Below, one piece after another: positions 35,323 to 39,646 of a stretch of DNA of 64,000 nt. The position numbers were made by a program, and so were the translations under genes. The notes under the pieces were generated by a model. That model had not been told where the DNA came from, did not search any database, and saw only the letters and a program-made list of their open reading frames with translations. The stretch is from assembly GCA_019636015.1 (NCBI GenBank), contig JAHBYJ010000002.1, positions 310,001 to 374,000 on the forward strand, in the 5' to 3' direction. This stretch comes from Parvibaculaceae bacterium. Its GTDB lineage: Bacteria; Pseudomonadota; Alphaproteobacteria; Parvibaculales; Parvibaculaceae. Within the stretch, counting starts at the first letter, position 1, and each line of letters opens with the position of its first letter.

Positions 35323-37080
35323 TTACTGTCCCGTCGTACCGAACGAGACGAGCTGCGCCTCGCGCAGCATGTCGTTTTTCTGCGGCTGCGTTGCCGGGCG
35401 AAGACCCAGCAGCGGCGCCACGCGCGTGACCACGCGCGAAGTCACCGGCGCCGCATTCCAGCCCGCCGTCGCATAGCCATAGGTATTCTTCGTCGCCTTC
35501 GGTTCGTCGAACATCACGATCATCGCGTAGCGTGGATCGTTGGCCGGAAAGGCGCTGATGAAGGAGGTGATCAGGCGGTTGCGCGCATAGCCGCCATTGA
35601 TGGCCTTTTCCGCCGTGCCGGTCTTGCCCATCACGGGGTAACCGTCCACATCCGCGCTCCGGCCCGTACCTTCCTGCACCACCATGCGAAGCAGCGTCCG
35701 CATCGTCGCGCTCGCTTCAGCCGAGATCACGCGTTCGCCGAGCTGCACATCGTTGCGGCGAAGGAAGGTCGGCTCCACCTTGAAGCCGCCATTGACGATG
35801 GTCGAAACGGCGCTCACCACCTGCAGCGGCGTCACGGCGATGCCATGGCCATAGGAGGTCGTGATTGTCGAAAGCTCGCTCCACCGCGCGGGCACGAGCG
35901 GCGCGCCCGCTTCCGGCAGCTCGATCTTCGGACGCGACATGAGCCCGAAGCGGCGCAGATAGTCCTTGTAGTCCTCGGTGCCGAGCTGCAACGCGATCTT
36001 TGCCGTGCCGATATTCGACGAATGAATGAAAACCTCCGGCACACTGAGCCAGCGGTTCTTCGCATGGAAGTCGCGGATCGTGAACCGCGCCACCTTGATC
36101 GGCTGCGTCGCATCGAAGCGCTCATCGACACGGATGCGCCCGCTGTCGAGCGCCGATGCCAGCGTCACCGCCTTGAACACCGATCCCATCTCGTAGACGC
36201 CGAGCGTCGTCCGGTTGAACCTGCTTTCCTCGGGCGAGGCCATGGGGTCGTTCGGGTCGAAGTCCGGCAGCGAAGTCATCGCCACCACTTCGCCCGTATG
36301 CACGTTCATGATGATGCCCGCTGCGGCCAGCGCGCGGAATTCCGTCATCGCCTTCTCAAGCTCGTCGCGCAGCGCATGCTGCACATGAAGATCGAGCGAC
36401 AGCATGACATTGGCATTGCGGTCGAATTTGGGCTTGCCTGCGGCATCCGTGCGGCTCAGCGCACGATCCATGTAGAGCTCCATGCCGCCGGTGCCGCGAT
36501 TGTCGATATCGACCGTGCCGAGGACGGTCGAGCCGTTCTTGCCGTTCGGGTAGACGCGCTTCTGTTCCTTGCGGAAATCGAGGCCCGGCAAGCCGAGATA
36601 ATGCACGGCATATTGCTGCCGGGGCGTAAGGTCCCGTTTCAGCCAAACGAAGGCACGGCCGGATTCGAGGCGCTGCGCCACATCTTCTTCATTGAGATCG
36701 GTGAGCACCGTCACGAGCTGTCGCGCCGTCTCGCGCGGATCGATCACATAGCGTGTGTCCGCGAAGAGCGATGCCGTCGCGATATCGGTTGCCAGAACCT
36801 CGCCATTGCGGTCCACGATGTCGGGCCGGCTGATCTGCGTCGTGCCGCTCGCGACCGCGACGGCCCCTTCGCCGCCCCCGCCCATGATGGCAAGACCGAC
36901 AAGCCGCGCTCCGACAAGCGTGAAGCAGGCCGCAAAAACGGCGAGCGAGAGGAAGATGCGCCGCTGCGATGGCGTACGTCCGCCCTCGCGGCGCTGCTGC
37001 GCGCGCGACTTCGAGATAGCGTCATGGCCTGGCGGCAGATAGCGGCCCTGACGGGCGGTGGTGCTGTTGCGCCCGATCAT
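35323..37080 (-). CDS. ftsI: Septal transpeptidase FtsI (PBP3)
   Basis: 585 residues. The N-terminal tail is basic, then one signal-anchor helix (about 43-65), the PBP dimerisation/pedestal domain, and a transpeptidase domain with S-x-x-K at EMGSVFKAV (Ser300, Lys303), S-x-N at SSNIGTA (Ser354-Asn356) and KTGTA (from Lys486). It cross-links septal peptidoglycan with FtsW. The order ftsL-ftsI-murE is conserved. It overlaps ftsL by 4 nt and ends 40 nt before murE. Confidence 0.96.
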   Translation of the reverse strand: MIGRNSTTARQGRYLPPGHDAISKSRAQQRREGGRTPSQRRIFLSLAVFAACFTLVGARLVGLAIMGGGGEGAVAVASGTTQISRPDIVDRNGEVLATDIATASLFADTRYVIDPRETARQLVTVLTDLNEEDVAQRLESGRAFVWLKRDLTPRQQYAVHYLGLPGLDFRKEQKRVYPNGKNGSTVLGTVDIDNRGTGGMELYMDRALSRTDAAGKPKFDRNANVMLSLDLHVQHALRDELEKAMTEFRALAAAGIIMNVHTGEVVAMTSLPDFDPNDPMASPEESRFNRTTLGVYEMGSVFKAVTLASALDSGRIRVDERFDATQPIKVARFTIRDFHAKNRWLSVPEVFIHSSNIGTAKIALQLGTEDYKDYLRRFGLMSRPKIELPEAGAPLVPARWSELSTITTSYGHGIAVTPLQVVSAVSTIVNGGFKVEPTFLRRNDVQLGERVISAEASATMRTLLRMVVQEGTGRSADVDGYPVMGKTGTAEKAINGGYARNRLITSFISAFPANDPRYAMIVMFDEPKATKNTYGYATAGWNAAPVTSRVVTRVAPLLGLRPATQPQKNDMLREAQLVSFGTTGQ

Positions 37081-37448
37081 TGGATGGTACTCCCCGGCGC
37101 ACCCGGCACAATGCCGCCCGCATAGCCGCCGAGCGGCTGGCGGCCCGACGGCGCGTAGAATTCATCCGCCATATGCGGCATGGGCACATCTTCGAAACTG
37201 CCGATCTGGCCAGCCGTCAGCGGCTCGAGCCCCGTATAGCGGCTTGCAAGCTCCTGCAGGCGCTCCGGCTGGTTGAGGTAGCTCCATTCGGCGCGCAACA
37301 CGCGGATCGCTTCCTGCTCGTTGGCGATGCGCTGCTCGAGCTGACGCGCATGGCGCACCGCGCCCTCCGCCTTGTACTTGATGTCGTAAAGGCCGACCGA
37401 AAGACCGATCACAGCAAGGATGAGGAGGAAATTGATGGTTCGCATCAT
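37077..37448 (-). CDS. ftsL: Cell division protein FtsL
   Basis: 123 residues. A single N-terminal membrane helix (residues about 4-22, [20 protein letters not shown]) is followed by a coiled-coil periplasmic segment ([53 protein letters not shown]), the standard FtsL architecture. Sequence conservation is low in this family, so the assignment rests on topology, the coiled coil with the [13 protein letters not shown] region, and position between rsmH and ftsI. Codon 2 is also ATG. Confidence 0.92.
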
Positions 37449-38461
37449 GCCACACCCCCATCGAGCGAGGGGACGGCGCGAAAGCCGAGCGCGCCGAGAT
37501 CGAGCGGGCGCCGCGGTGCGGCGGTGCGGATCGCCGCGCGGAGTTTCGCCGAACGCGCACGTGCATTCGTTTCCACTTCCGCGTCCGAAGCCTTGCGCGC
37601 CTTGTGCGCAATCTCCTCGAAGGACGGCGCTTCTTCCTCGACCGCCGGCATATAACGGTTCGGCCGTCCGGCCCGGCCGGTGCGTTCGGTGAGGAACCGC
37701 TTCACGATCCGGTCTTCGAGCGAATGGAACGTTACGACGGCAAGCCGCCCGCCTTCGGCAAGCAGCCCCTCCGCGCCGGAAAGCCCGCGCGCGAGTTCGC
37801 CCAGTTCGTCATTCACGAAAATGCGCAATGCCTGGAAAGTTCGCGTGGCCGGATGGATCTTGTCCTGCGGCTTGCGGCCGATCACCTTGGCAACGAGATC
37901 GGCAAGTTCGAGCGTGCGGTGAAGTTCCGCTTCTTCGCGCGCCTTCACGATGGCGCGGGCGACCGCACGAGCGCGCTTCTCCTCGCCATAGACGGCGATG
38001 ATGCGCGCAAGCTCGCTTTCGTCATAACGGTTCACGACATCGGCGGCCGAGGGCCCCTCGCCGCCCATGCGCATGTCGAGCGGCCCGTCCTTCTGGAACG
38101 AGAAGCCGCGTTCGGCCTGATCGATCTGCATCGAGGACACACCGATATCGAGCACCACGCCGTCCACGCTCTCGTGGCCGAGCGCATGCACGAGGCGCTC
38201 CATGTCGCCGAAGCAACCTTCGATCAGCGTCAGGCGCCCGGCGAATTCTGTCGCAAGCGCCCGCCCCCGGAGGATCGCGCTCGGATCGCGGTCGATCGCG
38301 AGCACCGCGCAATCCGCCGCGCCGAGGATCGCGCGCGTATAGCCGCCAGCACCGAAAGTCCCGTCCACATAGATGCCGCCGTCGCGAGGTTTCAGCACAT
38401 CGAGCACATCGGCCAGCATCACCGGAACATGAGGAACATTGCCCTGGCCGGTGACGCTCAT
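37445..38461 (-). CDS. rsmH: 16S rRNA (cytosine(1402)-N(4))-methyltransferase
   Basis: 338 residues. [36 protein letters not shown] contains the SAM-binding motif, then [76 protein letters not shown] and [13 protein letters not shown], all signatures of RsmH (MraW). It methylates C1402 in the ribosomal decoding centre. It overlaps mraZ and ftsL by 4 nt each. Confidence 0.97.
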
Positions 38462-38949
38462 CGTGCGCCTCCCATGCCGGTGCCGGGTTGTCCGCCGCTT
38501 GCGGGCGCCCGCAGGAGATCGCGGTTGCGCTGCGCATCTTCCAGCGCCTTCGCGTAATATTCCTCATAGGCCTTCGGCTCCCAGACCTGGAAGCGCTGGC
38601 CCATGCCCACAAATGTCGCCTCATCCTTGATGCCGGCGAGATTGCGCAGAGCCTCCGGAAGGATGACGCGGCCATCGGCATCGAAAGAGAGCTCGGCGCT
38701 CTCGCCGATCAGCACGGCTGCCAGCGACTGCCGTTCCGGGGAGAACGGATCGAGCCGGTCGAGCATCTGGTCGACAATGTCGGAAAAGGCCGGGCCGCAG
38801 CCCTCGAAGAAGGCGCCGGGATTGAGCGGCGGAAAGCAGATCACGCCATTGAGCCCCTGAGCCATGGTGACGGCACGAAACTTCGCGGGGACGGAAATGC
38901 GTCCCTTCGCGTCGATCCTGTTCGTGAAACGCCCCCGGAACGAATCCAT
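38458..38949 (-). CDS. mraZ: Transcriptional regulator MraZ
   Basis: 163 residues from ATG 38949 (AGG about 7 nt upstream); the longer frame to 38976 is less likely because [22 protein letters not shown] begins at residue 4, as usual. Two AbrB-like MraZ repeats are present: that segment, and [46 protein letters not shown]. MraZ forms rings and represses the dcw operon by binding short direct repeats upstream of itself. A strongly phased repeat array lies at 39008-39092. Confidence 0.95.
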
Positions 38950-39007: not shown

Positions 39008-39092
39008 CGGGACCGGCTGGCACCAATCGGGGCAGCATGGCCGTATACGGGACATCATGGGATAACATGGGATAGTATGGGCGTCAACGGGA
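39008..39092. promoter_or_regulatory. Phased [C/T]GG repeat array and mra promoter: putative MraZ operator
   Basis: Plus-strand [C/T]GG triplets recur at exactly 10-nt steps from 39008 to 39088, nine in a row. The five most complete are consecutive: CGGGA 39048, TGGGA 39058, TGGGA 39068, TGGGC 39078, CGGGA 39088. Known MraZ boxes are TGGGN direct repeats with 5-nt spacers, i.e. the same 10-nt period. A minus-strand promoter TTGACG (39087-39082), 17 nt, TATCCC (39064-39059) lies inside the array, with predicted start near 39052 and a leader of about 100 nt. The array covers most of the 315-bp non-coding stretch between mraZ and rnpB; the rest (39093-39264) shows nothing else I recognise. Confidence 0.75.
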
Positions 39093-39264
39093 AACCCCAG
39101 TATTTTGGCGGTTTTCAGCGGTATTCAGCATGCCTAACAGCTCGTTAAAATTGTCCGGATTGGGCGGAACATAAGTAGAACATCGATCTGTATTGGAAGA
39201 CATCTGTGCCGTCCCGGCACAGCTCGGGGCGGTGCAGGCGACGGAGCCGCAAGACGGGAAAAGT

Positions 39265-39646
<382 letters not shown>

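Follow-up and report, generated by a model that had tools for sequence, protein, structure and literature searches.

The question raised by this locus is whether the phased GG repeats that precede mraZ in a Parvibaculaceae bacterium form an operator for MraZ, and how far such an operator extends. The window, a 64,000-nt stretch of DNA, contains nine consecutive [C/T]GG triplets at exact 10-nt steps on the + strand, opposite to mraZ (39008-39090), as a preliminary description of the DNA had claimed. This is the sole + strand chain of at least five such triplets in the window, and the - strand is without any chain of at least six. When the window was shuffled 60 times under a first-order Markov model, the longest chains had 3 to 5 triplets, which rules out simple chance as the origin of the chain of nine. 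The last five triplets are GGG (39049-39091), the only GGG chain of at least four on either strand of the window; GGG chains in the shuffled windows did not exceed 4. These five had been described correctly as NGGGN, and the first four alternate between CGGG and TGGC. The features of the region are collected in table 1.

Table 1. Features of the mraZ control region and the genes that follow it, in window positions.
Feature	Position	Strand	Basis
Strong core, five putative MraZ boxes, 10-nt period	39048-39091	+	chain search and class profile
Core box CGGG	39048-51	+	chain search
Core box TGGG	39058-61	+	chain search
Core box TGGG	39068-71	+	chain search
Core box TGGG	39078-81	+	chain search
Core box CGGG	39088-91	+	chain search
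Four weaker downstream units, in phase with the core	39008-39041	+	chain search
Weaker downstream units CGGG, TGGC, CGGG, TGGC	39008-11, 39018-21, 39028-31, 39038-41	+	
Degenerate upstream in-phase units	39100-39122	+	C conserved across the class at matching offsets
Upstream units as read on the coding strand: ACC, ACC, AC	39122-39120, 39112-39110, 39101-39100		
Predicted -35, TTGACG, between boxes 39088-91 and 39078-81	39082-39087	-	class register
Predicted -10, TATCCC, overlapping box 39058-61	39059-39064	-	class register
Predicted transcription start region	39050-39052	-	inferred from -10 and promoter geometry
mraZ, opening gene of the dcw cluster	38458-38949	-	Pfam MraZ PF02381, E=2.6e-19
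rsmH (mraW), next after mraZ, 4-nt overlap with mraZ	37445-38461	-	Pfam Methyltransf_5, E=4e-97
Small ORF preceded by rsmH and followed by ftsI; FtsL judging by position	37077-37448	-	no Pfam match

The array immediately precedes mraZ, with which the dcw cluster begins. The gene order past it is mraZ-rsmH-ftsL-like-ftsI, as judged by Pfam and position, followed by murE/murF-like frames. In relatives the gene starts at the same ATG, and the nearest named relatives of the genome are Parvibaculum sp. and Rhodobiaceae MAGs. An AlphaFold model of MraZ (pLDDT 73) matches the M. pneumoniae and M. genitalium MraZ structures, the matches including 1n0e and the promoter complexes 9r4j and 9sz7, of which 9sz7 is a cryo-EM structure of M. 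genitalium MraZ with a '4 box promoter'. The protein is an ordinary member of its family. Its Pfam and structure-model matches assign it to the ring-forming MraZ proteins; it is encoded in cis to the array and is the presumed binder. On the other side of the control region, just upstream and co-directional, is rnpB, the RNase P RNA (39262-39645, - strand, Rfam RF00010, 318.6 bits).

MraZ upstream regions were gathered from genus, family and class relatives, including 161 distinct alphaproteobacterial regions. Shared 6-mers served to thin the sequence sets, and as no correction for phylogeny was applied, p-values are indicative. A profile anchored on the core fits 157/161 of the alphaproteobacterial regions. 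In the shared core, boxes of the CCCAT type recur every 10 nt, and a -35 (TTGAC) and a -10 (TATCCC) occupy the gaps. With offset 0 set at the first T of TTGAC (window position 39087), conserved C's occupy offsets -3/-2, 6-8, 16-18, 26-28 and 36-38, and an A directly follows most boxes. The CCC/CCCA columns are near 1.0 across the class, and the spacer bases are variable. Pairs of CCC were found 449 times at a distance of 10 nt versus 23-40 at distances 5-9 and 12-15. Strict CCC chains had a length of 4 in 58/162 upstream regions and 5 in 33/162. Since strict chains of four to five are common in the class, five strong boxes are ordinary. The suggestion of an unusually long array of nine boxes is only partly supported; the four extra units are restricted to a lineage. 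Aligning relatives, which the preliminary description had proposed as a check, gave a divided answer as well, with the phase of the core conserved across the class and the outer four units in phase in the nearest relatives only.

Counted as TGGG-type direct repeats at 10 nt, of which a MraZ operator has at least three, the array has five as GGG and nine as YGG. A search for four CCCR-N6 units returned a single site in the 2.88-Mb assembly, the array before mraZ, and the backwards control gave 0 matches; no further MraZ target with a four-box array was found by this pattern search of the assembly. Conservation of the core in the class and its uniqueness in the genome support the proposed assignment to MraZ. 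By its sequence, the array is a MraZ operator whose strong part has five boxes, not nine, and the cluster's own repressor, MraZ, almost certainly docks there.

A phased TGG array of at least three units was located on the template strand in 147/161 alphaproteobacterial regions. Other Proteobacteria have the same kind of array upstream of mraZ, AGTGGGAAA at 10 nt, but on the coding strand (49/71) and never on the template strand (0/71). The template-strand orientation holds for the whole class and is the reverse of that in E. coli, in agreement with the orientation noted for the window at the outset.

The predicted promoter is interleaved with the boxes. In the window the predicted -35 and -10 are separated by a 17-bp spacer, and the mraZ leader is predicted to be ∼100 nt long. 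Among thinned class members TTGA begins at offset 0 in 59/94 and at offset -1 in 21/94, and TAT is found at offsets 23-25 in 82%, with T, A and T at 0.91-0.94 individually. Conservation of TTGA and TAT at fixed offsets with a 17-bp spacer argues that the promoter sits in the gaps between boxes. The -10, TATCCC, is a poor match to TATAAT; sigma70 -10 elements of S. meliloti are reported to be poorly conserved (PMC3616915). The transcription start of R. sphaeroides is 268 nt upstream of mraZ (PMC5089854), so the position of the promoter differs in at least one family. Across the class the boxes overlap the -35 and -10, and do not follow the -10 on the coding strand as in the E. coli-type arrangement, which is typical of the described MraZ operators but not defining. 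The claim that the array spans the whole core promoter is borne out, with the predicted -35 and -10 between or on boxes. This interleaving, like the degenerate in-phase boxes found upstream class-wide, was absent from the preliminary description.

We consider it very probable, on comparative grounds, that a MraZ ring on the promoter-interleaved core boxes blocks polymerase and shuts off the dcw promoter, with the weak flanks adding contacts. The five strong boxes would present one site per helical turn on the same face of the DNA, alternating with the promoter elements. In order, they would lie upstream of the -35, after the -35, inside the spacer, on the -10 and at the presumed start site. 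A ring bound there would physically exclude RNA polymerase. The weak in-phase boxes, about three upstream and up to four downstream in this lineage, would probably allow a cooperative second ring, or more DNA to be gripped at high MraZ. Wrapping of DNA around a MraZ ring is compatible with such an arrangement.

How much of the flanks belongs to the operator depends on the outer units. The full chain of nine is present in five genus members (L001, L002, L003, L005 and L013, the window genome among them), and L015 and L084 have seven units in a row. In L004 and L006 one extra nt after box 5 puts the outer four units 1 nt out of phase, and in other subclades of the genus the outer four downstream units are lost. 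Upstream of the core, the window units at offsets -35 to -33 (ACC), -25 to -23 (ACC) and -14/-13 (AC) match the class pattern, in which C reaches 0.45/0.38 at -34/-33, 0.54/0.47 at -24/-23 and 0.52 at -13, and in-phase C peaks extend to offset -43. Periodicity was scored against circular shifts of thinned sequences. At offsets -48 to -8 it gave Z=11.4 for C and 4.1 for G, and at offsets 42 to 72 Z=5.0 for C and none for G (p=0.51). Since C carries the signal, G shows it weakly and downstream G is aperiodic, the periodicity follows the box strand. Misregistration was ruled out as its cause upstream, where the C signal holds up when only sequences in strict register are kept (Z=8.0) and when those with CCC there are dropped (Z=4.7). 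Downstream, the C signal vanishes once sequences with CCC in the flank are removed, and so stems from a subset with extra boxes. Farther out (-98 to -48 and 72 to 112) no significant periodicity was found. Arrays outside the Alphaproteobacteria have phased G, not C, in their flanks at the matching phase, to which promoter and RBS letters may contribute.

These observations bear on several other readings. The whole stretch of nine or more units may be one operator of ∼110 bp (39008-39122), bound by two rings or by one with wrapped DNA, and repression in this lineage would then be stronger or graded. Such a reading, in our view somewhat less likely than not, would extend the explanation by a polymerase-blocking ring on the core, not replace it. 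The nine in-phase units in the genus, the persistent upstream C peaks and their strand specificity, mirrored by G outside the class, speak for it; the outer units are nevertheless degenerate, with the downstream ones shifted or lost as described, and the comparison rests on thinned sets with phylogeny uncorrected. The upstream pattern of periodic A/T and C (39095-39132, offsets -45 to -8) could instead be an UP element and not extra MraZ boxes. UP elements are A/T tracts one turn apart that are gripped by the alpha subunits of RNA polymerase, and alpha-CTD sites lie at upstream distances like those observed here, where A/T-rich offsets -6/-5, -18 to -15, -28/-27 and -38/-37 fall at about -42, -52, -64 and -74 relative to the presumed start. 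With an UP element, C should not be favoured over G between the A/T tracts, yet C exceeds G at -24 (0.54 vs 0.17) and -13 (0.52 vs 0.12), and the periodicity of C is far above that of G. An UP element in place of boxes is a serious alternative, though less likely than not. Both may be present at once, an UP element together with extra MraZ half-boxes.

Downstream, units 6-9 (39008-39041) fall within the leader as predicted, and their entire sequence is common to the nearest relatives, so these units might be conserved for an RNA reason, such as a leader hairpin, with their phase due to chance. We think this quite unlikely, given the in-phase downstream C enrichment in a subset of the class. 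Folds of offsets 36-96 from 23 genus members had z of -1.4 to +1.4, no common structure and no advantage over shuffles, and the hairpin was rejected. It is highly improbable that the GGG runs control transcription by folding into a template-strand G-quadruplex, even though the repeated G3N7 fits a loose quadruplex motif and G-tracts of the S. aureus mraZ promoter are reported to act as a quadruplex (PMC11796246). A quadruplex (four conserved G3 tracts, loops of 1-7 nt) requires no fixed 10-nt register, and the register of the array is almost invariant. At the box at offset +6, CC is at 0.95 but CCC at 0.74; a box with GG only breaks a quadruplex and not a TGG box. The GGGN7 motif is present, but about a quarter of the class is without GGG at one box, with phased GG there in nearly all. 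The flanking letters in ATGGGAT are conserved as well. Register conservation and the GG-only boxes thus argue against the quadruplex, and a MraZ ring on the core remains the preferred explanation.

MraZ operators as a kind are already known, and that of E. coli was reportedly described by Eraso et al. in 2014. The E. coli region (L058) is like the Parvibaculaceae array in that TGGG boxes stand in tandem just before mraZ, one every 10 nt (GTGGGAAATT GTGGGGCAAA GTGGGAATAA), and reads ...TTGACAAGC...TAAACTCC...GTGGGAAATTGTGGGGCAAAGTGGG. Its three boxes are on the coding strand after TTGACA...TAAACT, whereas the Parvibaculaceae array has five strong boxes plus weaker ones, on the template strand and interleaved with the -35 and -10. 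In an EMSA, the MraZ of B. cenocepacia retarded DNA that carries, at the start site, four 7-nt repeats set apart by 3-nt spacers (PMC7761207). This PmraBc site shares the 10-nt period and the overlap with the start site, but is downstream of the -10 (PMC7761207), and non-alpha arrays are on the coding strand. Mollicute MraZ recognizes (AAAGTGKN3)3, with a 10-nt period (PMC5282649, citing Fisunov 2016). The Mollicute site and the M. genitalium 9sz7 complex share with our array the 10-nt direct repeats, three to four boxes and a ring-forming MraZ, and the Mollicute site differs in its A/T-rich box with a GTG core and its shorter array. The S. aureus mraZ promoter also has repeated G-tracts, interpreted there as a DNA structure and reported as a drug-targetable quadruplex (PMC11796246). 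These tracts lie where a MraZ operator is expected, and may themselves be the MraZ operator.

Two further site types lie between rnpB and the mraZ promoter. GTTC-N7-GTTC, a LexA box form known from Alphaproteobacteria, is found at 39167-39181 (- strand), and precedes mraZ in 20/22 genus members. Within 150 bp of the core in other class regions (n=130), 19 have it in the GTTC and 15 in the GAAC orientation, about a quarter; N6 and N8 spacing controls for GTTC gave 0-1. In L040, L038, L105 and similar loci the LexA-type box has the GAAC orientation and stands ∼120-150 bp before the mraZ -35. A site of the GTTC-N7-GTTC type also lies ahead of uvrA, opposite ssb, in the Parvibaculaceae genome (L258, names read from translations), which supports the identity of 39167-39181 as a LexA box. 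Such a box suggests SOS control of the division cluster. LexA binding upstream of a mraZ homologue was detected by EMSA in a gut bacterium (PMC3998124), and by analogy an SOS-to-mraZ link may recur. A CtrA-like TTAA-N7-TTAG is located at 39134-39148 (- strand). TTAA-N7-TTA[AG] was found near the same place in 15/22 genus members, with none for N6 and N8 controls, and the S. meliloti mraZ is reported with a CtrA motif (PMC3616915).

No description of an alphaproteobacterial MraZ operator, and none of its inverted, promoter-interleaved, flank-extended form, was found in the literature searched, a search that left many papers outside, including most subscription journals, and regulon databases such as RegPrecise. 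We would venture, with less than even confidence, that MraZ operators in general may be, instead of sites of three or four boxes, long phased tracks of about 10 helical turns, with a strong core and strand-specific half-boxes on both sides, holding two rings or one with wrapped DNA. The alphaproteobacterial track would then be inverted and fused with the promoter, sharing bases with the -35 and -10.

Few bacterial transcription factors are conserved as widely as MraZ, which controls division and cell wall genes, and MraZ operators have so far been defined in a few species only. An operator inverted and fused to the promoter throughout a class would offer a clean comparison of a ring reading boxes from either strand. 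The phased half-boxes would make ring number and DNA wrapping directly testable on short fragments.
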